Shown: positions 1,237 through 14,595 of the stretch, in pieces
Numbering within the stretch: the first letter of the stretch is position 1
Layout: every line of letters begins with the position of its first letter
NCBI RefSeq assembly: GCF_023028345.1
Contig: NZ_CP095487.1
Span: 3,596,001 to 3,660,000 of the forward strand
DNA length: 64,000 nucleotides
Reading direction: 5' to 3'
Source: Halorientalis marina
GTDB taxonomy: Archaea; Halobacteriota; Halobacteria; Halobacteriales; Haloarculaceae
Program-made: the position numbers and the translations under genes
Notes under the pieces: generated by a model
What the model saw: only the letters and a program-made list of their open reading frames with translations
The model's database searches: none
What the model was told of the DNA's origin: nothing

Positions 1237-1272
1237 TGTCGCAGACTCTGAAACACTGCGGCCCGGGTTAAG
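1237..1272 (+). promoter_or_regulatory. Palindrome P1 plus TATA element upstream of the leader ORF and CARDB/RND operon
   Basis: TGTCGCAG-ACT-CTGAAACA occupies 1237-1255 (two mismatches in 8-bp arms; the symmetry extends to CAG/CTG outside). Exactly 10 bp later comes the TATA-like GGTTAAG (1266-1272), and an ATG at 1300 lies about 30 bp further. The same arrangement recurs at 6384-6420, 8303-8338 and 14124-14159. The fixed spacing places the palindrome against the likely BRE, as expected for an activator or a repressor that competes with TFB. The binding protein is not known. Confidence 0.7.
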
Positions 1273-1299
1273 TTCCGCCTGGACCAACTATCGGCCGAG

Positions 1300-1440
1300 A
1301 TGACACGACAGCCCTCCCACCGGATCGGACGATCCGGCCAGGTCAGACGGACGCACCGGGCCGCCCGAACAGTTCCGCTCGCCGGACGCCGCCCGTTCGA
1401 CGAGGCCCGCCCGGCGTCCCGCGGTGGTGAGCACGAATGA
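1300..1440 (+). CDS. Putative leaderless leader peptide, 46 residues, coupled to the CARDB protein
   Basis: ATG lies about 30 bp after the TATA element of palindrome promoter P1, where a leaderless transcript should begin. The frame encodes a very basic peptide starting MTRQPSHRIG and ends with a TGA that overlaps the ATG of the next gene (ATGA at 1437-1440). A second short ORF behind a matching promoter (8201-8278) begins MTRHPPHRQ. That shared start is the best evidence that this is translated, either as a small protein or as a leader that delivers ribosomes to the downstream start. In GC-rich DNA a 46-codon frame can also be chance. Confidence 0.5.
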   Translation: MTRQPSHRIGRSGQVRRTHRAARTVPLAGRRPFDEARPASRGGEHE

Positions 1441-3392
1441 GGCCGACCGGACGCCACGGCGTCGTCCTCCTTCTGGCCGGCCTGCTGGTCGGCGCGGCGG
1501 TCGTCCCGGGCACCGCGGCCGCGGTGGTCCGGGGGAGTCCCGACCTGCAGGTCTCCCTCTCCGACGACACGGTCACAGCCGGGGAGAACGGCCAGCTCGA
1601 ACTCACGCTGACCAACGAGGGCGACGTCGACGCCGGGTCAGCAGGGAACCCCGCGCTCGCCTCGCAGGTCACGACCGCGCGCGGCGTCGACGTGACCGTC
1701 GACGCGGGCGGCACGCCCATCTCGGTCGAGACCGACACCCGGAGCCTCGGTCGCCTCCAGCAGGGCGGCGAGGCACCGCTCGCGTACGGCCTCTCCGTCG
1801 ACGAGGACGCCACCCCCGGCACGTACACGCTCGACGTGACCGCGGAGTACCGGTACACCTCCTCCATCGCGGAGCGCAACGGCGCCCGTAATCACGAGAC
1901 CGAGACCCGACACTTCGAGGTCGAGGTCGAAATCGACGACCGCGCCCGGTTCGAGGTCGTCGACACCGACGCGGCCGTCCGGGTCGGCTCGACCGGGACC
2001 GTCGGCGTGACGATGCGAAACGTGGGCTCGGAGGCCGCCAGCGACGCGACGGTCGCGCTCGCCTCGGAGAACGGCGACATCACGTTCGGCGAGTCCGGGT
2101 CGGCGACCCGCTTCGTCGGCGACTGGGCGCCCGGCGAGACCCGTACCGTCGAGTACGAGGCGGCCGCCGCCGAGAGCGCCGAAATCCAGCGGTACGCCCT
2201 CACCGCGACCGCGAACTTCGAGGACGAAGACGGCGTCGAGCGCCAGTCGGAGTCCCTCCCACTGGGGGTCGAGCCGCTGCCCGAACAGCGGTTCCCGGTC
2301 GTCGACGCCGAGCATTCTGTCGCGGTCGGCGACACCGGGACGGTCCGGCTGACCCTGGAAAACGACGGCGCCGTGCCCGTGCGCGACGCCACCGTCACCC
2401 TCGGCTCGGGGAGTCCCGCGCTCGCGTTCGGCGAGAGCGAGTCGGCGACCCGCTTCGTCGGCGACTGGGCGCCCGGCGAGACCCGTACCGTCGAGTACGA
2501 CCTGAGCGCGACGGACGCGGCGGAGGCGCGGAGCTACGCGCTCGACGCGACGGTCGACTACGTGACCCCGGACGGCGAGCGGGGGAGCGCCCCGCCCGCG
2601 TCGGTCGGCGTGACGCCCGCGCCCGAGCGGGGCTTCACCCTGTCGAACGTCTCGACCGACCTCCGCGTCGGCGAGGAGGGACAGGTCCGCGGAACGATCA
2701 CCAACGAGGGCGAGACGGCCGCGCGGAACGTCGTGGTGGAGTTCACGACCGAGAACGCGAACGTCAGCCCGCTGGAGACGGCGTACTCCGTTGGCACGCT
2801 CGAACCCGGCGAGACCGCCGACTTCGCGTTCACCGCCGAAGTTGGGTCCGCCGCGGACGCCGGCCCCCGGCAGTTCTCCTTCGTCGCCACCTACCGGGAC
2901 GGCGAGGGCGAGACGCGAACGAGCGACGAACTGCTGACCCGCCAGCGCATCGCTCCGGGCGCCGACACCCTCGCGGTCGAACCGGTCGAGGCGACCTACG
3001 CCCCCGGCGGCGGCGGCGAACTCACCGTCCGGGTCACGAACACGGCCGACGAGACGCTGACCGACGTGTCGGCGAACCTCTTCGCAGACGACCCCATCTC
3101 GGTCGACGACGGCGAGGCGGTCGTCGCGGAACTCGCCCCCGGCGAATCGACGACGCTGACCTTCGGCGTCTCCGCCGGGAGCGACGCGATAGCGAAGTCC
3201 TACCCCGTCTCGGTCGACTTCCAGTACGAGGACGCCGACGGCGACACGCACGTCTCGGACTCCCACCAGGTCCCCGTGACCGTCGCCGAACCGGAGACTG
3301 ACGGCGGGGGCGGCGGTCTGCCCCTCCCGCTGCTCGGCTTCGGCGCCGTGGGTGTCGTCGGCGTCGGCGTCGTCCTGCGGCGCCGGAGGTAA
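1437..3392 (+). CDS. Secreted, membrane-anchored CARDB-type repeat protein
   Basis: A 651-residue surface protein. Residues 1-31 form a signal peptide (basic start, then a LLLAGLLVGAAVV core and an ATA-type cleavage zone). The body holds four to five beta-sandwich repeats of about 110-120 residues resembling CARDB/NEW3 (COG1361, S-layer-like) domains, with recurring phrases such as TVRLTLENDG and APGETRTVEY. A Gly-rich linker precedes a C-terminal membrane segment (LPLLGFGAVGVVGVGVV) and a terminal RRRR. It precedes the RND exporter by one base. Such exported Ig-like proteins often partner MMPL/RND transporters, so an extracytoplasmic adaptor role is likely by inference. Repeats two and three contain an exact 60-bp duplication. 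Confidence 0.85.
   Translation: MRPTGRHGVVLLLAGLLVGAAVVPGTAAAVVRGSPDLQVSLSDDTVTAGENGQLELTLTNEGDVDAGSAGNPALASQVTTARGVDVTVDAGGTPISVETDTRSLGRLQQGGEAPLAYGLSVDEDATPGTYTLDVTAEYRYTSSIAERNGARNHETETRHFEVEVEIDDRARFEVVDTDAAVRVGSTGTVGVTMRNVGSEAASDATVALASENGDITFGESGSATRFVGDWAPGETRTVEYEAAAAESAEIQRYALTATANFEDEDGVERQSESLPLGVEPLPEQRFPVVDAEHSVAVGDTGTVRLTLENDGAVPVRDATVTLGSGSPALAFGESESATRFVGDWAPGETRTVEYDLSATDAAEARSYALDATVDYVTPDGERGSAPPASVGVTPAPERGFTLSNVSTDLRVGEEGQVRGTITNEGETAARNVVVEFTTENANVSPLETAYSVGTLEPGETADFAFTAEVGSAADAGPRQFSFVATYRDGEGETRTSDELLTRQRIAPGADTLAVEPVEATYAPGGGGELTVRVTNTADETLTDVSANLFADDPISVDDGEAVVAELAPGESTTLTFGVSAGSDAIAKSYPVSVDFQYEDADGDTHVSDSHQVPVTVAEPETDGGGGGLPLPLLGFGAVGVVGVGVVLRRRR
2099..2500 (+). 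repeat. Exact 60-bp internal repeat inside the CARDB gene
   Basis: Bases 2099-2158 and 2441-2500 are identical over 60 bp and lie 342 bp apart (114 codons), in register. The flanking parts of the two domains have diverged. Identity at the DNA level, including third positions, points to recent domain duplication or gene conversion. Confidence 0.85.
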
Positions 3393-3393
3393 C

Positions 3394-5835
3394 ATGGGCG
3401 CTCGAGCCATCGAGTGGGTCGACGACCGCATCGCCGCCCACCCCGGCAAGGTCGCCCTCGTCTTCCTCGCGCTGACGGTCGTGTTCGTCGGTGGGCTGGG
3501 GACGCTCGACAGCGAGTCGGGCAGCAGCCAGTTCACCGCCGACCTGGAGAGCGCGGAGGCGATGGAGGAAATCAACCGGGAGTTCGGCGCCAGTTTCGGC
3601 GGCGACCCGACGACAGCGAGTACCATCCTCCACGACGGCGGGAACGTCCTCGCCAAGCCCGCGCTCGTCCGGTCGCTCCGGGCACAGGAGCGGCTGGCGG
3701 CCCACGACGACCTCCGGGTCACCGGGACCACGAGCGCGGCCGGCGTCGTCGCCACGCGCCTCGACCCGTCGGCGGCGACGCTCGAGGCGAAACGCCGGGC
3801 CGTCGAGCGCGCGACGCCGAGCGAGATCGACGCCGCCGTCCGCGAGGCGGCGGCCGCCGACGCCTTCGGGACGACCGTCAGCGAGGACGTCAACGCCGAG
3901 AGCGCGACCGCGTCGGCCGCGAAGACGACCGTGACCCACGGCGTCGGCGAGCTCTCGGACAGGGAGCGGCGCGTCCAGGCCGTCGTCGACACCGTCCCCG
4001 GCGAGATGCGGGTCCTCGGCGACTCGCCCAACACGATGGCCGACTCGCTGTTGCTGGTCGTCCCGGCGGCGCTCGTGCTCATCGTCGCGTTCCTGATCGT
4101 GGCCTTCCGGGACCCGTTCGACCTCTGTCTCGGCGTCCTCTCGCTCGTGATGGCGATCCTGTGGACGTTCGGGGCCACCGGGCTGGTCGGCATCCCGTTC
4201 AACATGCTGATGGTCGCGCTCGTCCCGCTTCTGATCGCCGTCGGCGTCGACTTCGGCATCCACTCCATCAACCGCTACCGCGAGGAGCGGGTCGACGGGC
4301 GCGGGATCGTGCCCTCGATGCGGACCACGACCGACCAGCTGCTGGTCGCCTTCTTCATCGTCACCGGGACGACGGTCATCGGCTTCCTCTCGAACCTGGC
4401 GAGCGCGCTCGAACCCATCCGCGACTTCGGCGTCGTCGCGGCCATCGGGATCGTCGCCACCTTCCTCGTGTTCGGGATCTTCCTGCCCGCGGCGAAGGTG
4501 TATCTCGACGGCGTCCGCGAGCGGTACCCCATCCCGGCGTTCGGGCGCACGCCGCTGGGTGCCGACGAATCGGCGTTGAGCCGGGTCCTGAGCAGCGGCG
4601 CGGTCGTCGCGAACCGCGCGCCCGCCCTCCTGTTGGCTGTCATGATCGTCGCGACGCTCGGCGCCGGCGTCTACGCGACCGGCATCGGGACCGGCTTCTC
4701 CACCGACGACTTCCAGCCCGCGGAAGAGACGCCGGACGCCCTCCAGACCCTGCCCGAGCCGTTCGCACCGCCCGAATCCTACCCATACGTGCGGGACACG
4801 AACTTCCGGGACCGCCACTTCGAGTCGTCCGGCCGCGTCATGATGTACGTCCGCGGCCAGCTCGACGAGGATCACGCGCTCGCGGCCATCCACGCCGCGG
4901 GCCGTGACCCGCCGGGCGCCGTCGAGCGCGACGGCCGCCAGGCCGAGGCCCGGAGCATCGTGTCCGTCATCGAGAGCCGAGCGGCCGCGGATTCGGAGTT
5001 CCGCGCGCTCGTCGCCCGCAACGACGCCGACGACGACGGTATCCCGGACGACAACCTCGACGAGGTCTACGACGCCCTGCTCTCCTCGCCCGCCCGCGAC
5101 CGGGCGCTCCAGTACGTCGACGCGGACCGGGGGAGCGCGAAGGTGGCCTACACCGTCGACGGCGACGCCGACCCGTCGACGGTCGCGGCCGACGGGGCCG
5201 AACTCGCCGCCGAGTACCCCTATCCGGCGACCGCGACCGGCGGAAAGATCATCTGGAACGAGGCCTCGACGCTGATCATGCAGACGGTCGTCCAGAGCCT
5301 CGCGATCACGCTCGTCGGCGCCGCGCTCTTTCTCGTGGTCGTCTACTGGGTCCTCGAGGACAGCCCGACGCTCGGGCTCGCCAACGTCGTCCCCATCGCG
5401 ATGACGGTCACGTTCGTCGTGGCGACGATGCGGTACGTCGGCGTGACCTTCAACGTCTTCAACGCGATGATCCTCTCGCTGACCATCGGGCTGGGGATCG
5501 ATTACTCGGTCCACGTCACCCACCGCTTCGCCGACGAACTCGAACGGCGCCCGCTCTCCGAGGCGCTCGTCCGGGCCACCCGCGGCACCGGCGGCGCGCT
5601 GACCGGGAGCCTCCTCACCACCGTCGGCGGCGTCGGCGTCCTCGTGCTCGCCGTGAACCCCGCGATCGGCGTCTTCGGTCTCCTCACGATGCTCAGCGTC
5701 TGCTACGCCTACCTCACCTCGGTGTTCGTCCTCCCGTCGGTGCTCGTCGTCCAGCACCGCGTCGCGTCGTGGTGGCAGGCCGAAACCGGCGACCTGCTCG
5801 CCGACCGCCCGGCCGTCACGCCAGGCGACGACTGA
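3394..5835 (+). CDS. RND-superfamily (MMPL / HAE3-type) exporter
   Basis: An 813-residue protein in two similar halves. TM1 lies near residues 18-37, followed by a large external loop to about 210 and a bundle of helices at 215-380 (MADSLLLVVPAALVLIVAF onward). The second half repeats this: a TM near 405-430, a loop to about 625, then helices to about 790. GVDFGIHSINRYREE and GIDYSVHVTHRFADE are the paired TM4-type motifs of MMPL/SecDF-like permeases, with charged residues for proton coupling. The family moves hydrophobic or amphiphilic molecules; the cargo here is unknown. The ATG at 3394 lies one base after the CARDB stop, so the two form one operon. Confidence 0.92.
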   Translation: MGARAIEWVDDRIAAHPGKVALVFLALTVVFVGGLGTLDSESGSSQFTADLESAEAMEEINREFGASFGGDPTTASTILHDGGNVLAKPALVRSLRAQERLAAHDDLRVTGTTSAAGVVATRLDPSAATLEAKRRAVERATPSEIDAAVREAAAADAFGTTVSEDVNAESATASAAKTTVTHGVGELSDRERRVQAVVDTVPGEMRVLGDSPNTMADSLLLVVPAALVLIVAFLIVAFRDPFDLCLGVLSLVMAILWTFGATGLVGIPFNMLMVALVPLLIAVGVDFGIHSINRYREERVDGRGIVPSMRTTTDQLLVAFFIVTGTTVIGFLSNLASALEPIRDFGVVAAIGIVATFLVFGIFLPAAKVYLDGVRERYPIPAFGRTPLGADESALSRVLSSGAVVANRAPALLLAVMIVATLGAGVYATGIGTGFSTDDFQPAEETPDALQTLPEPFAPPESYPYVRDTNFRDRHFESSGRVMMYVRGQLDEDHALAAIHAAGRDPPGAVERDGRQAEARSIVSVIESRAAADSEFRALVARNDADDDGIPDDNLDEVYDALLSSPARDRALQYVDADRGSAKVAYTVDGDADPSTVAADGAELAAEYPYPATATGGKIIWNEASTLIMQTVVQSLAITLVGAALFLVVVYWVLEDSPTLGLANVVPIAMTVTFVVATMRYVGVTFNVFNAMILSLTIGLGIDYSVHVTHRFADELERRPLSEALVRATRGTGGALTGSLLTTVGGVGVLVLAVNPAIGVFGLLTMLSVCYAYLTSVFVLPSVLVVQHRVASWWQAETGDLLADRPAVTPGDD

Positions 5836-5999
5836 GCCGGGCGGACACCGACCGCTGCGGCCGGAGAACGGGCGAGACTGCGGCCGGCGGACTCGCATCC
5901 GTTCGCTCCTCGCAGCTCGCAAAACAGGCAGTTCGAATCCGGGAGCGGTGGGGACCGGGGCGGGTCAGAACAGGGCGGAGGGGGGCGGTGGCGACTGCG
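5836..5999. other. Gene-free spacer between converging units
   Basis: G-rich spacer after the exporter and before the end of the opposing 119-residue gene. No coding signature, RNA gene or clear hairpin terminator was seen. Confidence 0.5.
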
Positions 6000-6359
6000 T
6001 CAGAACGCGCCTTCGGCGACGCTCACGAGGCCGTTCCCGACCTCGACGAGCGCGGTCTCGTGGGGGCCGCTCCCGACGAGACACTCGGCGCTGGCCGTGG
6101 ACTCGTCGTCGATCCGGGCGTCGACGCGGTAGACCGCACGCGGGAGCCGCAGGCTGATGCTCACGGCCGACCCCGGGGGGACCGCGTACGTCTCCCGGAA
6201 CGTGACGTCGTCGTCGGCGTCCACGAACCGGACCGTCACCTCGTGTGTCCGCTCGCTGTCGTAGTTCCGACAGACGAGACTCTCCTCGTCGACGTACCGG
6301 TCCCCGCGGTCGTCGGGGTCGGCGTTCGGTCGCTGTCCGAGTGGTGCTTCGGAGGGCAT
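6000..6359 (-). CDS. Conserved-looking small beta-rich protein, function unknown
   Basis: 119 residues with no signal peptide or membrane segment. After a disordered acidic start, the rest alternates as beta strands (THEVTVRFVDADDDVTF, SAVSISLRLPRAVYRVDARI), suggesting an Ig-like or transthyretin-like sandwich. Two cysteines (in LVCRN and AECLV) could pair. I do not recognise a characterised family. It is expressed from its own palindrome promoter (6384-6420), with the TATA element 28 bp before ATG 6359. The winged-helix gene 6438-6896 lies just upstream on the same strand. Shared regulation with the CARDB/RND operon and the FAD oxidoreductase is inferred from the promoter motif. Confidence 0.75.
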   Translation of the reverse strand: MPSEAPLGQRPNADPDDRGDRYVDEESLVCRNYDSERTHEVTVRFVDADDDVTFRETYAVPPGSAVSISLRLPRAVYRVDARIDDESTASAECLVGSGPHETALVEVGNGLVSVAEGAF

Positions 6360-6383
6360 GTGTGGAGAGACGGCCTCCCCCGT

Positions 6384-6420
6384 AGTAAACCGTCGAGCAG
6401 TGTTTCAGGGTCTGAAACAC
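6384..6420 (-). promoter_or_regulatory. Palindrome P2 (perfect) plus TATA element
   Basis: GTGTTTCAG-GGT-CTGAAACAC (6400-6420) is a perfect inverted repeat with 9-bp arms and a 3-bp spacer. Reading on the minus strand, 10 bp separate its 19-bp core from the TATA-like GTTTACT (6384-6390). The ATG of the 119-residue protein at 6359 lies 28 bp from that element. This is the best copy of the four-site family. Confidence 0.8.
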
Positions 6421-6437
6421 CGCGAATTGCGGCGGAG

Positions 6438-6896
6438 TCAGACCGTCCACTCGGTGTCGTCAGCGGCGGCGGACGCTGACGAGGCGGGAGTGGATGCGGG
6501 CGACGCGGTCACCGTGATGGCGCCGTCCTCGATCCGGACGGTCAGACGGTCGCGGACGAGGCGGAACTCCTTGCAGTGATGGCCGTCGGGGTCGACGGAC
6601 GTCTCGGTCGCGACGAGCCCCGCCGATTCGAGGCTGTTGAGCCGGCGGTACACGGTCGGCCGCGACGCCTCGCAGCGTGCCGCCAGTTCCCGGCCGCGCA
6701 TGGGGCCGGCAGTGAGGGTTGTGAGGAGTTCGCGTGCGTACTCGTCGTCGAGCAGGCTGAGCCGTGTCGGTGCCTCGCTGTCGCTCCGGGACACGAGCGA
6801 GTCGTCCGTCGGGTCGGTGCGCCGGTCGTGACGGGGTGAGCGGGGACGCGCTCCGTCGGCAGTCGTCGTCATCGTACTCCGCTCTTTCGCGGCCAT
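6438..6896 (-). CDS. Winged-helix transcriptional regulator (haloarchaeal ArsR-like)
   Basis: 152 residues. A disordered charged N-terminus precedes a winged helix from about residue 45 (LLDDEYARELLTTL, then RELAARCEASRPTVYRRLNSL as the recognition helix), ending in a wing with DGHHCKEF. The protein is a paralogue of the one at 8478-8906, which has the same LLxDEYA opening and DGHHxxEF wing. ATG 6872 is an alternative start that would drop eight residues. It lies just upstream of palindrome promoter P2 and near P3. It is therefore one of several candidates to bind that palindrome, but nothing in the sequence proves it. Confidence 0.8.
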   Translation of the reverse strand: MAAKERSTMTTTADGARPRSPRHDRRTDPTDDSLVSRSDSEAPTRLSLLDDEYARELLTTLTAGPMRGRELAARCEASRPTVYRRLNSLESAGLVATETSVDPDGHHCKEFRLVRDRLTVRIEDGAITVTASPASTPASSASAAADDTEWTV

Positions 6897-6908
6897 CCCC
6901 GTAGCCGT

Positions 6909-6945
6909 CCTGTCACGGTGGACTACCGTGGGACCGCGTGACAGG
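6909..6945. promoter_or_regulatory. Inverted repeat in the promoter region of the winged-helix gene
   Basis: CCTGTCACG (6909-6917) and CGTGACAGG (6937-6945) are perfect 9-bp arms around 19 bp. Nested inside are ACGGT and ACCGT. It lies 13 bp upstream of the ATG at 6896 and after the stop of nothing on the plus strand, so a terminator for a plus-strand gene is unlikely. An operator for autoregulation is the simpler reading. Confidence 0.5.
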
Positions 6946-7002
6946 GCTATTCACATTGACCGCGGCCGGCGAGACGGGGCGGCGGGGCCGTCCGGGGGCG
7001 GT

Positions 7003-8196
7003 TCAAAGCGCGTCGGGGACGGACCTGGCGAGTTCGGGGACGCGGCCGTCGACGACGTGGCCGAACGCGAGCGTGCGGGCGGCACACAACCGCCGGAGCG
7101 GTGGGCAGAGAGCGGCGTCGACGCGAGTGCCAGCGGCGTTGCCGTGGCCGGGTAGTAACTCGGTCGACCGGCGCCGGCGTCGGCGTTCGTACGCGTCGAG
7201 TGCGTCGTCGATATCGGGCGGCCCGTACGCGAGCGTGTCGGCCAGGACCCACGCATCCTCCACGCCGAGTGCAGCCCGCAGCGGGTTCCCCGGGAGCGTC
7301 GTCCGCGCGGCCGGGCCGACGAGCGCGACGCGACCGGGCCGCATCGACGCGGGAACGACGAGCGGGACCCGCCGATACCGGAGCGTATGCTGGTCGAGGC
7401 GGGCGAAGGGGTCGCCGGTCGCCGCGAACAGGGGACCGAACAGGCCGCCGAGTTCGTCGACGGACACCGCCGTGGCGGGGGCCGTTTCCACACCCGCGAC
7501 GAGACGAACGAGTGTGCCGTCGGCCACGGGCACGGTAAACGCGGCGAGGGCGTCGTCCCACGCTTCCGTCGGTGCGTCGGGCGACGGCACCCCGTCCGGC
7601 CACTCGAACGCCCAGGTGTGGACGCTCCGTGCCGTCGGGGTGGCCTCCCGCGTCCACAGGAGCGACCGGTCGGTCGTGACGACCGTGTCGAAGGGCTCGT
7701 CGATACCGGACTCGAACGTCGCACTGACGCCGTCCGCGGTCGGCTCGATGTCCGTCACCGGACGCTCGGCCGTTCGGAGACGGCCGCGCAGTTGCCGGTC
7801 GAGTAGCGCCCGGAGCCGGGACCGCCGGACGGCGACGAGCGACGGGCGGGCGTCGCCGTTTCGCATCCACGACTGCGCCGCGTCGGGACGCGCCAGGCGG
7901 TCCAGCGGCGTGCCAAGTCGTTCGACCGGCCGCCGGAGCCCGATCCGTTCGAGCAGCGCCAGGCCCGGCTCCCAGAGCGTGACCAGGGGCGACCGCGTGC
8001 GCTCGCTCGACGCGGACGCGAGCACCGGATCGAACCCCGCCTGCCCGAGGAACCCGGCCGTCGCCGCGGCGGCGAGGCCGTCGCCGACGACCAGTATCTG
8101 CCGGTCCCGCGGCCGAGCGGTCGCCGGCGATCGCCCCCGTTCGTCCCCGGCAGGGCCCCGTTCGCTTCGGTCGGCGGACGAGAGTGGTCCGACCAT
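7003..8196 (-). CDS. FAD-dependent oxidoreductase (monooxygenase / geranylgeranyl-reductase-like)
   Basis: 397 residues. After a disordered 30-residue start comes an N-terminal Rossmann strand-helix (ILVVGDGLAAAATAGFLGQAGF), a variant of GxGxxG. Near residue 300 VALVGPAARTTLPGNP occupies the place of the second FAD motif, but the usual GD-AAH is GP-AAR, so the Asp that binds FAD ribose is changed. The overall layout is that of PHBH/UbiH and geranylgeranyl-reductase-type flavoproteins. The substrate is unknown; altered motifs leave activity open. It follows a 25-codon leader ORF by four bases and is driven by palindrome promoter P3. Confidence 0.7.
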   Translation of the reverse strand: MVGPLSSADRSERGPAGDERGRSPATARPRDRQILVVGDGLAAAATAGFLGQAGFDPVLASASSERTRSPLVTLWEPGLALLERIGLRRPVERLGTPLDRLARPDAAQSWMRNGDARPSLVAVRRSRLRALLDRQLRGRLRTAERPVTDIEPTADGVSATFESGIDEPFDTVVTTDRSLLWTREATPTARSVHTWAFEWPDGVPSPDAPTEAWDDALAAFTVPVADGTLVRLVAGVETAPATAVSVDELGGLFGPLFAATGDPFARLDQHTLRYRRVPLVVPASMRPGRVALVGPAARTTLPGNPLRAALGVEDAWVLADTLAYGPPDIDDALDAYERRRRRRSTELLPGHGNAAGTRVDAALCPPLRRLCAARTLAFGHVVDGRVPELARSVPDAL

Positions 8197-8200
8197 CCGT

Positions 8201-8278
8201 TCAGTCGAGTCGTCCCGTGGTCGAGCGTTCGGAGTCGGTCGGCGCGGTCCACTGTCGGTGGGGCGGGTGTCTCGTCAT
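8201..8278 (-). CDS. Putative leaderless leader peptide, 25 residues
   Basis: ATG at 8278 lies 28 bp from the TATA element of palindrome promoter P3, and the frame stops four bases before the ATG of the FAD oxidoreductase. The peptide begins MTRHPPHRQW, matching MTRQPSHRI of the leader at 1300-1440 at six of the first eight residues. The shared start, promoter and position make a real translated leader more likely than chance. Confidence 0.5.
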   Translation of the reverse strand: MTRHPPHRQWTAPTDSERSTTGRLD

Positions 8279-8302
8279 GGGTCGAGCTACGACGGACGCC
8301 AC

Positions 8303-8338
8303 CGTAAACCGGCGGCGCGTGTTTCTGACACAGCAACA
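8303..8338 (-). promoter_or_regulatory. Palindrome P3 plus TATA element
   Basis: TGTTTCTG-ACA-CAGCAACA (8320-8338) has one arm mismatch. On the minus strand, 10 bp separate it from GTTTACG (8303-8309), and ATG 8278 follows 28 bp later. No TATA element lies at that distance on the plus strand, so the site serves the leader ORF and FAD oxidoreductase rather than the divergent regulator at 8478. Confidence 0.75.
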
Positions 8339-8477
8339 GGCCCCACCGACCGCATCCGCGACGGGATCGCGTCCCGCGGTTTCGAGGGGGCAGTCAATAT
8401 GCATAGCCCCGTCGCACGGCGCCGGGCAGTCAGTGTTTCCATCACGGTTGGGAGGATGGGTGTCGTTGACCGATACG

Positions 8478-8906
8478 ATGACGGCACACCGCAGCCCACC
8501 CCGGACGGACGGCCCCACCGACGAACGGGGTCTCCCGGCCGAACAGCACGGTCCGACCCACGAGCCGGCCGACGAATCGGTCGCCGGCGACCGACCGACG
8601 GCGGCAGCGGCCGACGACCTCCTGGCCCTCCTCGGCGACGAGTACGCGTGTGACATCCTGCGTGCGCTCGCCGACGGGCCGCTGCCGGCCAGGGACCTCA
8701 TCGAGCGCCACGGGATGTCCCGGACGACGGTCTACCGGCGCCTCGACCGGCTGACCGACGCCGGCATCGTCGACTCCAGGCTGCGGCCCGCGAGCGACGG
8801 CCACCACCGGCGGGAGTTCCACCTCGCCGTCGACGAGATCGAGTTCCAGGTCGGTGCGGACGGCGTCGACGGTGCCGTCCGTGGGACCGACACCGCGAGC
8901 GACTGA
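8478..8906 (+). CDS. Winged-helix transcriptional regulator, paralogue of 6438-6896
   Basis: 142 residues. A disordered, polar first 45 residues precede a winged helix: LLGDEYACDILRALADG, then ARDLIERHGMSRTTVYRRL as the recognition helix and a DGHHRREFHL wing. ATG 8478 is the only sensible Met before the domain; the frame is open further upstream but that part lacks conserved features. It diverges from the FAD oxidoreductase. The paralogy with 6438-6896 and the location beside palindromes P2 and P3 make both candidates for the regulator of the local regulon. Confidence 0.8.
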   Translation: MTAHRSPPRTDGPTDERGLPAEQHGPTHEPADESVAGDRPTAAAADDLLALLGDEYACDILRALADGPLPARDLIERHGMSRTTVYRRLDRLTDAGIVDSRLRPASDGHHRREFHLAVDEIEFQVGADGVDGAVRGTDTASD

Positions 8907-8988
8907 CGTCACGGCGGCCCCGTCATCGCGCTGGCGCCCGCACTCGGCGCTCCCGTCGCACCCGCTGACGCTCGGCCCTCCTCCGGTT

Positions 8989-9056
8989 CCCCCACGCGTT
9001 CGGCCCTCCCTCTTGTCCCCCGACACTCGGCCCGCTCCCCCACGCGTTCGGCCCTC
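8989..9056. repeat. Direct repeat in the intergenic spacer
   Basis: A 20-bp sequence beginning CCCCCACGCGTTCGG occurs exactly at 8989-9008 and 9037-9056 (period 48). A weaker unit (GACGCTCGGCCCTC) lies just before it at about 8968-8981. The region separates two convergent genes (ends 8906 and 9116). No coding function was seen. Confidence 0.65.
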
Positions 9057-9115
9057 GCCGACGGCCGCACTGCCCGACGCCGCCACGCGCCCTGGGTCCG
9101 TCCCCGCGGACCGTG

Positions 9116-12100
9116 CTACGCCGGCGTGTCGGACGCCGAGCCGAACAGCAGGTCGAACACCTTCCCCTCGCCGAGCCGGATGTGTTTGTTCACCGTCGGC
9201 TGCGTGATGCCGAGCGTCGCCGCGACCTCCTCGCCGCTGCTCTCGCGCGGCCACTCGAAGTAGCCCATCGCGTGAGCCGTCTCCAGCGCCTCGTACTGGC
9301 GGTCGCTCAGCCGGCGCTGGAGGCGGCTCCGCATCTCGCTCGGGGTCGCGTCCGTCTCGTGGTGCTGGCGCTGTGCGGTGAGTTCGAGCGCCGGGAACTC
9401 CTCGCGGAGGCGGTCGACGATGGTCCGCGTGTCCGCCTCCTTTGGGAGTTCGACGACCAGTTCGACGCCCCCGTCGGTCGCCCGGCCGCGCCGGAGGACG
9501 CCCCCGTACTCCGAGATCAGGGCGCCGAACCAGGACGACCCGCGGCGTTCGAGGACCGCCTCGCCGTCCCCCTCCGAGACGACCTCGACCTCGCCCGGCA
9601 GCGTCTCGACGGCCGTCTCGTCGACGTCGGCCGGGACGTCGTCCCGGAGCGTGTAGTAGACGCTGACCGAGCCGTCCTGGCGCCGGATGGTCCGCTCGTG
9701 GCGGACCCGGCAGCCCGTTTCCCGCGCCAGGCGGGCGAACGGGAGGTCCATGTCGGTCCCCCGGAACTCCAGTTCGAGGGTGTCGTCGGACTCCAGGGCG
9801 CGCTGGCGCTCGATGGCCGTGATCGCGTAGCCGATGGACGTACCGAGCTGTGCGAGCACCTCTCGCACCCGGTCGCCGAAGGCGTCCGGCTCGTCGGCGG
9901 CGACGGTGAGCACGCCGTAGGTGATCCCGCCGTAGGCGAGCGGGACGGCACACACCGAGCCGACGCCCGTCTTGAGGAGGAGCTGTCGCCAGTCGCTCCG
10001 CCTCCCCCCGCCCACGAGGTCGTTGACGACGCGTGGCTCGCCCGTCTCCCAGACCTCGACCGCCGGGTGCGTGTCGGTCCCGTCGGGCCGCTCGCCGTCG
10101 AGCGCCCGCTCGGCGTCGTCGCGGTCGATACCGGCGACCGTCCGCGGCGTCAGGCGGTCGGTACCGACCTCCGCCGCGACGATCCAGGCCGCCTCGAAGG
10201 GGTCGACGTCGACCAGTTCCGCACAGACCGCGTTCTGAATCCCCTGTCTCGACGACTGCGTGGTGATGGCGGCCTCGACGCGGCGGGTCAGCTCCGTGAT
10301 CGCCTCCAGCCGGCGGGCCCGCTCGGTCTGGGCTTCGAGTTCCGCCCGCCGGCTCTCGAGCTGTCGCTCCCCGCGCAACCGGTTCAGCGCGGCTTCGAGC
10401 GTCGCCGCGAGGATGCTCGCCGCGTCCGTGTCGAACGCCTCCCCGGTCCGCCAGACCGCGAGCACGCCGTTGCCGCCCAGCGGGAACAGCAGCGCCTCCC
10501 GGCCCGCGCCCACGTCGAGGGCTGGTGCCTCGTCGACGGTGACGCGGTGCATCGTCTCGCCGACGAACGCCTCCCAGGCGCGGGTGTCGTCGGCACTGAC
10601 CGTCGGGAGGTCGCCCGGGGCCGGCACCGCGGGCCCGGTCGCCGTCGGATCGAGTTCGGCGGTCTCCTCGTCGTATCGGTAGACCGCGGTGGCGGGGATG
10701 TCGAAGACGTCCGCGGCGGCGGTGACCGCCACGTCCCCGGCGTCGGTGACGGTGTCGGCCGTCGTCAGGGCCGCGGTCGCGTCGTGGAACGACTCCAGGG
10801 TCCGCTCGCGCTCCTTCCGGTCGGTCACGTCGCGGCTGACGATGACGACCCGCGAGACGCCGTCGTCCCACTCCGTCGGGTAGAAATCGGAGTGGACCCA
10901 CCGGACCTCGCCGTCGGGCCGCTCGATGCGGTACTCCCGGCTGTACCGGTCCGGGGCAGTGCCGCGCTCGACCTCGTCGGTGATTCGGTCGACGAACGCC
11001 CGATACCCGTCGTAATCGTCGGGGTGGAGCGTCCCGAAAAATCCCTCCTCGTAGGTCTCGTGGAGGCCCTCCAGCGACTGGCCCCAGATCGTCTCGTAGC
11101 CGGAACTGACGAACTCCGGTGCCGGCCGCGGTTCGCTCAGTTCCGCGGCCGGCGCGAGGAAGATCGCCTCGTCGATGCGGTCGACGATGGCCTCGAGCCG
11201 GCGCTGGCTCTCGCGTGACTGCCGGGCGCGGTGGACCCGTTCCAGCGCGCTCGCGACGTGGCCGGCGAGTACCCCCGTCACGTCGACGAGGTAGGACGCG
11301 TAGTCCTCGCGGCCTCGCTCGCCCGCCGCCAGCAGCCCGTGGTCACCCAGCGAGACGATGATCGACGCGTCGAGCGGGTTGTGGTCGTGATGCTCGCTCG
11401 GGTCGTACGTCGTCGCCGCGTCGCGCTCGAAGGCCGCGTACTCCCAGTCGCCGGCCGTAAACGGGACCGGTCCGTCGGGCATCTCTTCGACCGGCTCCGT
11501 CCCGGCGACGTACGTGAGCCGTTCGGCGTCGTCGTCGTGGCGCCAGCAGGCGGTCATCGGCAGGCCGAGCACGTCACGTGCCGTCTCGACGGCGATCCGA
11601 TACACCTCGTCGGTCGTCTCGGCGCCCTGGAGCCGCTCGGTGGCCGTCTGGAGCTGTTCGACCGTCCGCTCCCGCTCGCGCCGTTCCGTCACGTCCCGGA
11701 AGTTCGCCATCGTCGCCGGCTCGCCCTCGTGCTGGATGCGCGACACCGAGAGTTCGAGCGTGATCCGCTCGCCCGTCTTCGTCTCGACCTCGACGTCGTA
11801 CTGGTTGGGCGGCGACTCGCCGGCGACGCGGCGCTCGTACCGTTCCTCGACGAGTTCCCGCGAGGCCGGCGTGAACACGTCCTGGAACGGCATGTCGAGC
11901 AGTTCCGCCTCGTCGTAGCCGGTGATCTCACAGAAGCGGTCGTTGACGAACACGTACTGGCCGTCCCTGACGACGACGACGGCGTCGGTGCTCTGCTCGA
12001 CCAGCGTCGTGTACTTCTGTCGCTCCTCCTCGATGGCCCGCTCGCGCCGTTTTCGCTCCGTGATGTCGGTGTACCAGACGTAGGCGTGGTGCGAGTCGTT

Positions 12101-14026
12101 GCTCTCGAAGGGGAGGACCCGGAGGATGAAATCGCGGACGCCGTCGGCGGTCTCCCGGCGGACCTCCGCCTCGACCGGTTCGCCCGCGAGGGTCTGCTCC
12201 CGGATTCGCTCGTAGCCCGCCCGCTCCTCGTCGGGGACGATGACGTCGGCGATGGGGCGGTCCGCGACGCGCTCGGCTTCGAACCCGAAGGCGTCCTCGA
12301 AGGCTGAGTTGACCTCGGTAATGTAGGGGTCGCCGTCCGTGAACTCGACGGCCATGATCGGGTCCGGCGTGTTCTCGAACAGGACCGAGCGGCGGTCGCG
12401 TTCGGCCGCCAGCCGCCGCTGGCGCTCGCGGCGCTCGGTCACGTCCGTCGTCAGCCCGACGTAGGAGTAGTCGTTGTCCTCCTCGAGGAGCGGGTAGCCG
12501 GTCCAGTGGAACCACCGCGTCTCGCCGTCCGGCCGCTGGAACCGGAACTCGAACTGGTAGCTGTCGTCGGCCTCGCCGGCGAGGATGTCCTCGACCATCG
12601 CGCCCACGTCCGACACGTACCCGTCCCGGTCCGCCGGATGGATGCACTCGACGAACCGCTCGGGGTCGTACAGTTCTTCGACCGGAATCCCGGTCAGGTC
12701 CTCGTAGACCGGGTTGAGGTACGCCGGCTCGGTCTCGCCCTCGGGGACGAGCATCACGCCGGCGTCGATCCGCTCGACGATGGTCTGGAACCGGGCCTCC
12801 GTCTCCCTGCGCTCGGAGACGTCACGCACGCTGGCGAGGACGCGCTCGGTCCCGCGGAACGCCGCCAGCGTCAGGTGAACTTCGACCGGGTAGGTCTCGC
12901 CGTTTTTCCGTTCGCCGCGCCACTCGAACAGCTGTGCCCCCTCCTCGGGGACCTGCTCGATCAGTTCGCGTGCCCGGTCGTAGGTGTACTCGGCGTCCGA
13001 CGCGGTGACGAGGCTGACGGGTTCGCCCACGAGTTCGTCGTGGTCGTAACCGGTCATCTCGCAGAACCGGGCGTTGGCGTCGACGATTTCGCCCGTCTCG
13101 GGCTCGTGGACCACCAGCCCGTCCGAGACGTTCTCGAACAGTTCGCGGTAGGTCCGTTCGAGCTCGCGGCGCTCGGTGACGTCCTCGGCGATCCCGACGT
13201 ACCAGTCGTCGCCGGTCTCGTTCGTGACCGGATAGCCGTTCGCGAGGACCCACCGGACCTCGCCGTCCGGCTGCTCGACGCGGAACTCGAACTCGTAGCT
13301 CTCCGCCGGCTCTCCCGCCCTGATGTCCTCGCGCATCGCCGCGAAGTCGGCCTCGAACGCCTCGCGGTCCCGCGGGTCGATCCCCTCGATGAAAGCGGTC
13401 GCGTCCTCGTACAGCTCCGCGACCGGGCGGCCCCAGACCGCCTCGTACGCCCCGTTGACGTACTCGATCTCCGAGAAGTCCTCGTTGGCGACGTAGACGA
13501 TCTCGTCGACGTTCTCCGCGACCAGCCGGAACTGGTCGTCGCTGGCGAACGGCGACGCGGCCGATTCGTCGGTCGCGCTCGCCGCGTCCTGCGCCACGTC
13601 GTCGGTGTTCGCGGTGTCCGCCCCCGCGTCGGTCGCGTCCGCGGTGGCGGTTCCCGAGACGTACTCGGCGATACGGGTCGTGACGGCCGCGGGGTCGGTC
13701 TCGGTCAGCGACCGGGGGAGGTAGTCGGTCGCGCCGGCCTCGATTGCCGTCGGCACGACCGCCTCGAAGTCGCCGGCGACGAGCACGACGACCGGCAGCC
13801 CCGGCCGCCGGGCCGTGGCACGGTCGACGAGCCCGTCCCACGAGTCGGTAGTCGCCTGGTCGATCAACAGACAGTCGGTAGTGTCGAGCGCGTCCGGGAG
13901 GGCTCCCGGCGGTGTCCTCGTCAGTTCGAGCGACGTGCCGGCGTCGGCTCCCGCCGTCCCGAGCCGGGACGCGATCTCGTCGTCCCCTACCACAGCCACC
14001 CGACGTGATTGACGCGTAGATGTCAT
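9116..14026 (-). CDS. Giant PAS/GAF sensor with C-terminal HTH-10 (bacterioopsin-activator-like regulator)
   Basis: 1,636 residues. A degenerate receiver-like domain (residues about 8-125, with IDQATTD where a phospho-Asp would be expected) leads into five PAS domains (about 160-785, each ending in DVTERRE-type PAC motifs), a GAF (about 795-945), a sixth PAS (950-1085), two more GAFs (1090-1410) and a Bat-type domain. The C-terminus is an HTH-10 domain (LSDRQYEALETAHAMGYFEWPRESSGEEVAATLGI region) that binds DNA. There is no histidine kinase core, so ligand sensing is coupled directly to transcription. Light, redox or small ligands are the usual inputs. It sits between regulators and palindrome promoters. 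Confidence 0.93.
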   Translation of the reverse strand: MTSTRQSRRVAVVGDDEIASRLGTAGADAGTSLELTRTPPGALPDALDTTDCLLIDQATTDSWDGLVDRATARRPGLPVVVLVAGDFEAVVPTAIEAGATDYLPRSLTETDPAAVTTRIAEYVSGTATADATDAGADTANTDDVAQDAASATDESAASPFASDDQFRLVAENVDEIVYVANEDFSEIEYVNGAYEAVWGRPVAELYEDATAFIEGIDPRDREAFEADFAAMREDIRAGEPAESYEFEFRVEQPDGEVRWVLANGYPVTNETGDDWYVGIAEDVTERRELERTYRELFENVSDGLVVHEPETGEIVDANARFCEMTGYDHDELVGEPVSLVTASDAEYTYDRARELIEQVPEEGAQLFEWRGERKNGETYPVEVHLTLAAFRGTERVLASVRDVSERRETEARFQTIVERIDAGVMLVPEGETEPAYLNPVYEDLTGIPVEELYDPERFVECIHPADRDGYVSDVGAMVEDILAGEADDSYQFEFRFQRPDGETRWFHWTGYPLLEEDNDYSYVGLTTDVTERRERQRRLAAERDRRSVLFENTPDPIMAVEFTDGDPYITEVNSAFEDAFGFEAERVADRPIADVIVPDEERAGYERIREQTLAGEPVEAEVRRETADGVRDFILRVLPFESNDSHHAYVWYTDITERKRRERAIEEERQKYTTLVEQSTDAVVVVRDGQYVFVNDRFCEITGYDEAELLDMPFQDVFTPASRELVEERYERRVAGESPPNQYDVEVETKTGERITLELSVSRIQHEGEPATMANFRDVTERRERERTVEQLQTATERLQGAETTDEVYRIAVETARDVLGLPMTACWRHDDDAERLTYVAGTEPVEEMPDGPVPFTAGDWEYAAFERDAATTYDPSEHHDHNPLDASIIVSLGDHGLLAAGERGREDYASYLVDVTGVLAGHVASALERVHRARQSRESQRRLEAIVDRIDEAIFLAPAAELSEPRPAPEFVSSGYETIWGQSLEGLHETYEEGFFGTLHPDDYDGYRAFVDRITDEVERGTAPDRYSREYRIERPDGEVRWVHSDFYPTEWDDGVSRVVIVSRDVTDRKERERTLESFHDATAALTTADTVTDAGDVAVTAAADVFDIPATAVYRYDEETAELDPTATGPAVPAPGDLPTVSADDTRAWEAFVGETMHRVTVDEAPALDVGAGREALLFPLGGNGVLAVWRTGEAFDTDAASILAATLEAALNRLRGERQLESRRAELEAQTERARRLEAITELTRRVEAAITTQSSRQGIQNAVCAELVDVDPFEAAWIVAAEVGTDRLTPRTVAGIDRDDAERALDGERPDGTDTHPAVEVWETGEPRVVNDLVGGGRRSDWRQLLLKTGVGSVCAVPLAYGGITYGVLTVAADEPDAFGDRVREVLAQLGTSIGYAITAIERQRALESDDTLELEFRGTDMDLPFARLARETGCRVRHERTIRRQDGSVSVYYTLRDDVPADVDETAVETLPGEVEVVSEGDGEAVLERRGSSWFGALISEYGGVLRRGRATDGGVELVVELPKEADTRTIVDRLREEFPALELTAQRQHHETDATPSEMRSRLQRRLSDRQYEALETAHAMGYFEWPRESSGEEVAATLGITQPTVNKHIRLGEGKVFDLLFGSASDTPA

Positions 14027-14123
14027 CGGTGGCGCATCCTATTGTTCGGACGGAGGATGCGCGACCGGATAAAATCCCCCACACGTTCGCGGCGACGAGG
14101 GGCGTTGGCGGTGGCTGGGACGG

Positions 14124-14159
14124 TGTTTCCGGTTCGGAAACAGTGCGGCCCGGTATATG
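14124..14159 (+). promoter_or_regulatory. Palindrome P4 (perfect) plus TATA element
   Basis: TGTTTCCG-GTT-CGGAAACA (14124-14142) is a perfect inverted repeat. Ten bp later comes GTATATG (14153-14159), and the ATG of the ArsR-like regulator is at 14188, 32 bp from the TATA centre. The 10-bp spacer GTGCGGCCCG is nearly the same as that of P1 (CTGCGGCCCG), so part of the BRE context is conserved too. Confidence 0.8.
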
Positions 14160-14187: not shown

Positions 14188-14595
14188 ATGGCACAAAGCG
14201 CGTTCCCGATGGGGCCGTCCGACGTCGACCCGGAGCAGGAACCGACCGTCGTCTCGCTCGACGACGCCGACGCGATGATCGAGGCACTGGCCTCGGAGAC
14301 GAGACGACGGATCGTGGCGGCCCTGGGCGAGGAGCCGATGCCTCCCTCGGGGGTCGCCGAGGCGGTCGACACGTCCCTCCAGAACGTCGTCTACCACCTC
14401 GATACGCTGACCGATGTCGGACTCGTCGAGGTCGTCGAGACCGGGTACTCCGCCCGCGGCGCCGAGATGGACCTGTACGCACCCGCGGCCGCCCCCGTCG
14501 TCATCTGCGTCGGCGACGAGCGCAGCGAACGACTCGTCGCCAGCGCCGTCGACGACGAGCCGACCCCCGCCGTCTCCCCCACCAGTTCCGACTGA
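14188..14595 (+). CDS. ArsR-like winged-helix regulator
   Basis: 135 residues. The winged helix covers about residues 30-95: ALASETRRRIVAALGEE, then SGVAEAVDTSLQNVVYHLDTL as the recognition helix and a wing with the ARGAEMDLYAP end typical of haloarchaeal ArsR/HTH_20 regulators. No metal-binding cysteines were seen. ATG 14188 was chosen because promoter P4 lies at leaderless distance; an upstream in-frame extension has no support. It is divergent from the giant HTH-10 gene. Its own promoter carries the palindrome, so autoregulation or membership of the regulon are both possible. Confidence 0.82.
   Translation: MAQSAFPMGPSDVDPEQEPTVVSLDDADAMIEALASETRRRIVAALGEEPMPPSGVAEAVDTSLQNVVYHLDTLTDVGLVEVVETGYSARGAEMDLYAPAAAPVVICVGDERSERLVASAVDDEPTPAVSPTSSD

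Follow-up and report, generated by a model that had tools for sequence, protein, structure and literature searches.

What reads a palindrome that stands before four promoters of one archaeal locus, and what would it switch there? The locus lies in a stretch of 64,000 nucleotides of Halorientalis marina (contig NZ_CP095487.1, positions 3,596,001 to 3,660,000, forward strand), which we call the window, and the palindromes are of the type TGTTTC-N7-GAAACA. From sequence comparison we consider it quite probable that they are operators of a family of small winged helix-turn-helix (wHTH) proteins, here named wH, with the two members wH1 and wH2 encoded in the window, and that the four promoters would be switched together. 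By the same comparisons, the window exemplifies a haloarchaeal arrangement in which some of the wH genes adjoin an operator of the general form NNYTKC-N7-GMARNN phased to TATA. The palindromes, their TATA-like elements and the two proposed binders are located as follows.

1237..1255, + strand: operator 1, TGTCGC-N7-GAAACA, two mismatches, both in the TATA-distal arm
1266..1272, + strand: TATA-like element GGTTAAG, 10 nt past operator 1
6385..6390, - strand: TATA-like element GTTTAC of the small-protein gene
6401..6419, - strand: operator 2, TGTTTC-N7-GAAACA, perfect
6438..6896, - strand: wH1, small wHTH regulator with the helix SRPTVYRRL, proposed binder
8304..8309, - strand: TATA-like element GTTTAC of the FAD gene
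8320..8338, - strand: operator 3, TGTTGC-N7-GAAACA, one mismatch in the TATA-distal arm
8478..8906, + strand: wH2, small wHTH regulator with the helix SRTTVYRRL, divergent from the FAD gene, proposed binder
14124..14142, + strand: operator 4, TGTTTC-N7-GAAACA, perfect
14153..14159, + strand: TATA-like element GTATATG of the ArsR-type gene

An earlier note, made from the sequence alone, had described the four palindromes, and we find them at the same coordinates, two being perfect, one having one mismatch and one having two. The 10-nt spacer it reported between palindrome and TATA is exact in all four cases (before GGTTAAG, GTTTAC, GTTTAC and GTATAT). An ATG does follow near each TATA-like element; its distance of 28–32 bp had to be corrected to 31–35 nt, counted from the first base past the spacer. 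A search of the window with up to three mismatches gave four matches against 0.86 expected, and four or more were reached in 2 of 100 shuffles. With up to one mismatch the whole genome (4.75 Mb) holds only three sites, those at 6401, 8320 and 14124, all of them in the window; when two mismatches are allowed the number rises to 24, compared to 3 for a reversed-pattern control. The search in relatives that the note had suggested also showed enrichment over controls and phasing to TATA, with 25 sites against none in eight genomes of the genus at up to one mismatch (present in six of them) and 104 against 10 in 77 genomes of the window's family (present in 49). Among 46 distinct sites picked by the palindrome alone and read in both orientations, 23 of the 34 TTTA, TATA or TTAA starts within 65 nt downstream are found at 11–14 nt, 11 of them exactly at 11 nt.

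The wH family profile matches 284 of 293 sampled genomes of the order. Against the TrmB model PF01978 (cut-off 25.6) wH1 scores 29.6 and wH2 23.5, which is below the cut-off, while both exceed the cut-offs of HTH_20 (30.8 and 38.9, cut-off 27) and of HVO_A0261_N (36.5 and 35.8, cut-off 35). The ArsR/SmtB metalloregulator model NF033788 (cut-off 55) is reached neither by wH1 (29.3) and wH2 (36.3) nor by the ArsR-type protein of the window (40.7), and the invariant and nearly invariant columns of a 14-row wH alignment contain no cysteine. Reading every small wHTH gene as a TGTTTC binder had to be given up, as the site together with a TATA occurs in just 5 of the top 30 wH loci, and the genes were therefore analyzed by helix class. 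The set consisted of 149 distinct wH genes after removal of seven duplicates, which are nearly all of those most like wH1 among the best matches listed; a second sample held 55 genes in 50 loci outside the window's family, these loci being part of the matches listed (10 returned by the profile search and 40 picked down its list) and including near-copies (L405/L406 and L416/L417).

Of the 41 genes in the set of 149 that have an SR helix as in wH1 and wH2, 20 have TGTTTC-N7-GAAACA at a distance of up to 1.5 kb, compared to 14 of the 108 others (Fisher p 1.3e-5, relatedness ignored), and a reversed-arm control was found near none of the 149. Beside other helix classes the repeats with a spacer of 7 vary in sequence, and the general form NNYTKC-N7-GMARNN was drawn from the spacer-7 repeats beside wH genes. 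It adjoins 57 of all 204 wH genes, with no more than two genes at any other spacer. The count within the 149 genes (37 at spacer 7 and 0–2 at each other spacer from 3 to 11) is biased, these genes having themselves supplied the spacer-7 hits behind the pattern; free of that bias is the out-of-sample test in the other families, where spacer 7 is found in 20 of 55 genes and every other spacer in 0–1. The operator reaches a density of 0.285 per kb at distances of up to 350 bp from a wH gene, against 0.024 per kb elsewhere in the wH loci and 0.005 in 59 control loci. When no TATA condition is set, 82 of 96 TTTA, TATA or TTAA starts in the 40 nt downstream lie 9–13 nt past the palindrome, 38 of the 96 exactly at 11 nt. 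The TATA-phased operators, 69 in number, face the wH gene itself in 44 cases, a divergent gene in 19 and a gene 3' of wH in six. Operators 2 and 3 of the window adjoin wH1 and wH2 and are of this type, phased to TATA.

The other genes around the four palindromes are needed to follow which promoters carry the operator in other genomes.

1300-1440, + strand: short open reading frame (ORF) of 46 amino acids, beginning at the nearest ATG past operator 1; stop codon overlapping the start of the CARDB gene (ATGA)
1437..3392, + strand: CARDB-repeat protein (PF07705), first named gene of the presumed exporter operon
3394..5835, + strand: MMPL/RND transporter; nearest NCBIfam model HAE3, score below its cut-off
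6000..6359, - strand: small beta-rich protein, 119 amino acids; its closer orthologues also have the operator
7003..8196, - strand: FAD_binding_3-type protein, conserved cassette member
8201..8278, - strand: ORF of 25 amino acids with its ATG next to the TATA of operator 3; ends 4 nt before the FAD ATG (8196)
9116..14026, - strand: giant protein with PAS, GAF, BAT and HTH_10 domains, member of the conserved cassette, unlikely to bind the operators
14188..14595, + strand: ArsR-type (HTH_20) regulator, 135 amino acids, presumed regulated cassette member

The giant PAS/GAF/BAT/HTH_10 gene, the FAD_binding_3-type gene, one or two wH genes and often an ArsR-type gene form a cassette that, according to gene maps, recurs in three families of the order, the window's own and two others (f4 and f7); one of these cassettes (L162) is from Halosimplex carlsbadense. 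Wh and FAD genes occur together in 15 loci, and 14 of these have an operator 10 bp before the TATA of the FAD promoter; it shows up to two mismatches in 11 of them and three in the other three (L138, L196, L200). None of the 14 has a change in the TATA-proximal arm GAAACA, all 17 mismatches falling into the distal arm. FAD loci without wH have the operator in none of eight cases, the best candidates showing 5–8 mismatches and L243 no candidate at all. Five of these eight have a long HTH_10 relative (L204, L239, L241, L242, L243), four of the five also an ArsR-type gene, and in L207 the HTH_10 match covers only 54 amino acids; the operator is missing in all five and so does not occur wherever an HTH_10/FAD cluster does. 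A second version of the cluster is visible here, with HTH_10, ArsR-type and FAD genes, without wH and without the palindrome (L239, L241, L242, L243). Six of the 15 loci are the window itself or had been found by the site (L132–L134, L138, L149), and nine had been picked by FAD or HTH_10 similarity alone. In the latter the operator is present in eight, and eight of nine against none of eight has a chance of about 4 in 10,000 by hand calculation with relatedness ignored. L203 belongs to neither group, having no FAD match by tblastn and an apparent wH match that overlaps the ArsR-type gene, and L202, without a FAD match in the survey of 24 loci, was counted via a separate survey entry (L176).

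At the small-protein promoter the picture is similar among close relatives. The query gave 15 matches in 13 of the 77 family genomes, and the operator stands upstream of seven of them (G000, G001, G002, G004, G019, the copy on C41 in G040 and, with a weak TATA, G074); it is found at none of the remaining eight, namely L064 (58% identity), G004 and G040 in their second copies, and L069–L073, which are more distant. Outside this sample it was seen also in G003 and G007, and in G002 the small-protein and ArsR-type genes stand side by side, each with its own operator. The palindrome is therefore conserved at orthologous genes, at the FAD promoter even in three families, which was one of the points on which the earlier note had made its proposal of a local regulon depend. 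From that proposal the shared operator at a fixed distance to TATA is retained; the regulon is not purely local, the palindrome being one class of an operator type found beside genes of the wHTH family.

In the mechanism we propose, wH would bind as a dimer that recognizes both TGTTTC half-sites through the helix SRPTVYRRL or SRTTVYRRL; its place would be roughly a helical turn ahead of TATA, beside the B recognition element (BRE) and the site of transcription factor B (TFB). The operators do end some 10 nt short of TATA and hence beside the BRE, if the latter has its generally accepted place. By this mechanism wH would jointly switch the promoters of the FAD, small-protein, ArsR-type and exporter genes and might activate them by helping TFB and the TATA-binding protein TBP; that binding is dimeric and that all four sites are served by wH1 and wH2, we infer.

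Several results weigh against assigning the operators to wH in this simple form. Under strict criteria an operator is missing at 112 of the 149 and at 35 of the 55 wH genes, among them SR-helix genes of the same genome (L145, L281). A scan for perfect 6-bp inverted repeats with a phased TATA near the 149 genes found 14 with a spacer of 7, 10 each with spacers of 5 and of 9 and none with a spacer of 3; spacers 5 and 9 are nearly as frequent as 7 because all of them share one centre, and only the even spacers 4, 6, 8 and 10 (1, 2, 1 and 2 repeats) serve as control. L199 has wH and FAD genes and a doubtful operator, the FAD operators of L138, L196 and L200 have a degenerate distal arm, and the HTH_10 protein may have a joint role, which is conceivable because it shares the cassette with wH.

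That the giant HTH_10 protein, which resembles the bacterio-opsin activator, binds the palindromes and activates by itself, with the wH genes as merely co-regulated neighbours, is improbable. The earlier note had listed it among the possible binders, and its true orthologues (above 370 bits) occur in 8 of the 77 family genomes, each time with the cassette and the FAD operator; its recognition region is nearly invariant across families, and excerpts of a study on haloarchaeal denitrification treat a promoter motif, CGAAYATDKTYG, and Bat-like regulators together (PMC11218638). The clusters of HTH_10, ArsR-type and FAD genes without wH (L239, L241, L242, L243) nevertheless have no palindrome, a point tempered by the greater distance of their HTH_10 proteins (259–275 bits), small-protein operators exist in genomes without this orthologue (G001, G004), and operators adjoin wH genes outside the cassette. 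The presence of the operator in all but one of the 15 loci that have both wH and FAD, and in none of the eight FAD loci without wH, makes the small wHTH family the likely binder instead of HTH_10. A role of the ArsR-type protein (14188-14595) as binder that controls itself and the rest is very improbable. A perfect operator directly precedes its gene in the window, the arms are perfect also in G002, and the gene is linked to sites in Halosimplex-type genomes; against this, its recognition segment is a different one (SLQNVxYHL), FAD operators occur without an ArsR-type match within the stretch in L149, L196–L198, L206 and L244 (G019 has one on another contig, at L148), no site was found in 27 loci of longer relatives, and ArsR-type clusters without wH have no sites either. 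Hardly credible is an origin of the palindromes from chance or from structural sequence such as hairpins or coding constraint, given the excess over controls in genus (25 against 0) and family (104 against 10), the out-of-sample spacer test and the TATA phase. Some matches with one or two mismatches elsewhere do resemble coding sequence: in two genomes of the genus (L009, L025) such a palindrome lies in apparent coding sequence, and the TGTTTCGACGCCAGAAACA-kind sequence seen there was found again in other genomes. Matches of this type are probably coding coincidence and not operators.

If the wH proteins are the binders, they could also be repressors that keep TFB off the BRE and are released from the DNA upon induction, which we regard as possible but less likely than activation. 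An autoregulatory layout is common among repressors, and 44 of the 69 TATA-phased operators show it by facing the wH gene itself. The sites of CsmR also lie upstream of BRE/TATA, yet, in the excerpts of that study, the genes linked to it by chromatin immunoprecipitation rise most in the deletion strain (PMC13286277). On the other side, the wH operator ends 10–11 nt before TATA and covers neither TATA nor the start site, and OxsR and the TrmB relatives TrmBL1/Tgr activate from upstream positions, according to excerpts of the respective papers (PMC9426492, PMC10817205). The invariant arm at the FAD promoters is the TATA-proximal one, as would be expected if the proximal subunit touched TFB. With these precedents and the invariant arm we lean towards activation by wH.

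Can the operator then be read from the protein? When the recognition helix is written as S-x2-x3-T-x-Y-R-R and the arm bases are numbered in NNYTKC-N7-GMARNN, the 149-gene set shows T at base 3 in all 38 arms of genes with R, L, P or V at x2 and C in all 28 arms of genes with D, G or T. Furthermore, x2 = R goes along with T at base 1 (20 of 20), x3 = P with T at base 5 (50 of 50) and x3 = S or T with G (14 of 16). A permutation test on 17 cluster representatives gave p ≤ 5e-5, with the rule taken from the same data. The rule was then fixed in advance for the other families, where bases 3 and 5 were scored in the best operator per gene and helix residues E, A and others were left unscored. Base 3 agreed in 36 of 36 arms (six genes with D and twelve with P or L); base 5 agreed in 34 of 34, which is undiscriminating because every gene scored has x3 = P. 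In an AlphaFold2 model of wH1 (mean predicted local distance difference test score, pLDDT, 65.2 overall and about 83–87 in the wHTH domain) a helix of residues 79–91 begins directly after S78, and x2 and x3 are therefore the first residues of the recognition helix.

Several observations count against such a rule. There is no clean rule for x2 = E (5 T and 3 C at base 3) or x3 = A (4 T and 2 G at base 5). On the tree, for which the one ArsR-type row (SVQN) among the 149 genes was excluded, x2 and base 3 change three times each, and likewise x3 and base 5, while x2 = R and base 1 = T change two and five times; the independent helix–base pairs number one when supported branches are counted and three over all branches. 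Relatedness therefore limits the proof, and a phylogeny-corrected demonstration of the code was abandoned, the independent changes being too few. All in all it is rather likely that in this lineage-wide family the operator, about 11 bp before TATA, can be read from x2 (bases 1 and 3) and x3 (base 5). In the window the distal arm of operator 3, TGTTGC, has G at base 5, as the rule gives for wH2 (x3 = T), with T in the proximal arm, and the distal arm of operator 1, TGTCGC, also has G there, so that the imperfect sites may reflect wH2. Such hybrid sites combine a TTTC arm with an arm of TTGC type, and it is doubtful that heterodimers of wH1 and wH2 read them. For bacterial regulator families such as LacI it is a known idea that the bases of an operator depend on residues of the recognition helix; compared to LacI-type operator groups, the present case concerns an archaeal family of one-domain wHTH proteins with operators phased to TATA.

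Some of the targets named in the earlier note need correction, as the first ATG after the sites at 1237 and 8320 opens a short ORF and not the CARDB or the FAD gene. These ORFs begin with MTRQPSHR (1300-1440) and MTRHPPHR (8201-8278). A shared leader was considered and rejected, the FAD ORF itself starting near the same place in several relatives; because it opens there at the equivalent ATG, the 25-amino-acid ORF may be a changed N-terminus of the FAD protein. The ArsR-type gene is best read from 14188, the ATG at 14157 falling inside the TATA element. The alignment of the FAD_binding_3-type proteins shows G-P/A and no conserved GD in the stretch where we take the GD motif of such proteins to lie, and they may therefore not be ordinary monooxygenases. 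For the small protein, a model of low confidence (mean pLDDT 61.7) gave no Foldseek match at E ≤ 0.001. Its best matches, which are weak, include one chain from the MmpL5-S5 complex of mycobacteria as well as MmpS5 (TMq 0.23–0.27), and the gene (6000-6359) adjoins that of the MMPL transporter; the resemblance is probably due to chance.

At the exporter promoter the site (1237) has the most mismatches of the four, and among the 24 loci of the cassette survey an RND gene recurs only in L202, whose maps show no site for it; at L137, outside the cassette, an RND relative lies near a palindrome that is not phased towards the RND gene. Elsewhere the genes downstream of sites include AIM24-type genes (TATA-phased in L247 and L246, not in L139), an RDD gene (L139, weak TATA) and PF13796 'Sensor' genes (phased in L143, weak in L137). 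AIM24 and RDD genes occur together with PAS/HTH_10-type and wH genes in L139 and L245, with palindromes beside AIM24 and RDD in L139 and, by the same mapping criteria, none in L245. At L145, on the second contig of the H. marina genome, two SR-helix wH genes stand beside response-regulator-like and PAS/HTH_10-type genes. That the regulon serves the membrane or envelope of the cell is a guess at present, and the handling of a hydrophobic compound, which the earlier note had considered, is another conceivable role.

Neither the wH family nor this operator appears to be described in the top-ranked results from the open-licence literature, which take in few subscription papers and preprints, and a search by family name found no papers. 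For the known systems nearest to it we draw on excerpts of the papers cited. OxsR (HVO_2970) from Haloferax volcanii, a TrmB-family protein, is a small one-domain winged-helix regulator like wH, and its semipalindromic motif upstream of BRE/TATA is linked to activation and thus placed like the wH operators, whereas downstream motifs go along with repression; it differs in its motif CGGnCGnGCG, in requiring the conserved N-terminal Cys24, where the wH alignment has no invariant cysteine, and the excerpt describes no helix–operator rule for it (PMC9426492). The same dependence on position, upstream for activation and downstream for repression, applies to TrmBL1/Tgr (PMC10817205). TrmB from Haloarcula hispanica and Halobacterium shares the wHTH domain, and the H. 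hispanica motif of 19 bp is partly palindromic like the window sites, but unlike those of wH its targets are mainly genes of carbon metabolism (PMC10817205); the two-domain TrmB proteins carry a C-terminal ligand-sensing domain, which wH lacks (PMC9426492). CsmR from H. volcanii binds a semipalindrome at a consistent place upstream of BRE/TATA, as the wH operators are placed, with another sequence and spacer (TATCA-N4-TGATA, likened to Lrp/AsnC motifs; PMC13286277). Regulators of the Bat/NarO/DmsR type resemble the cassette protein in their HTH_10 domain, the latter having BAT and HTH_10 domains too. The denitrification motif is a different one, CGAAYATDKTYG, with a binder that the paper itself calls undisclosed (PMC11218638), and the palindrome described here tracks wH and not HTH_10. 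The Natrinema sptA elements differ from the wH operators (PMC6085418).

The wH family profile is found in almost every sampled genome of the order, yet the family carries only generic labels in the 25 plasmid records listed. The locus adds an undescribed cassette of an HTH_10 sensor, a FAD-type protein and an ArsR-type regulator that appears to be linked to a wH switch. The wH system would allow clean tests of the way in which an archaeal regulator works from a position beside TFB. If the helix-to-base rule is true, regulons could be predicted from the protein sequence alone, and together with the simple operator grammar it would make the targets of many unnamed haloarchaeal regulators predictable.

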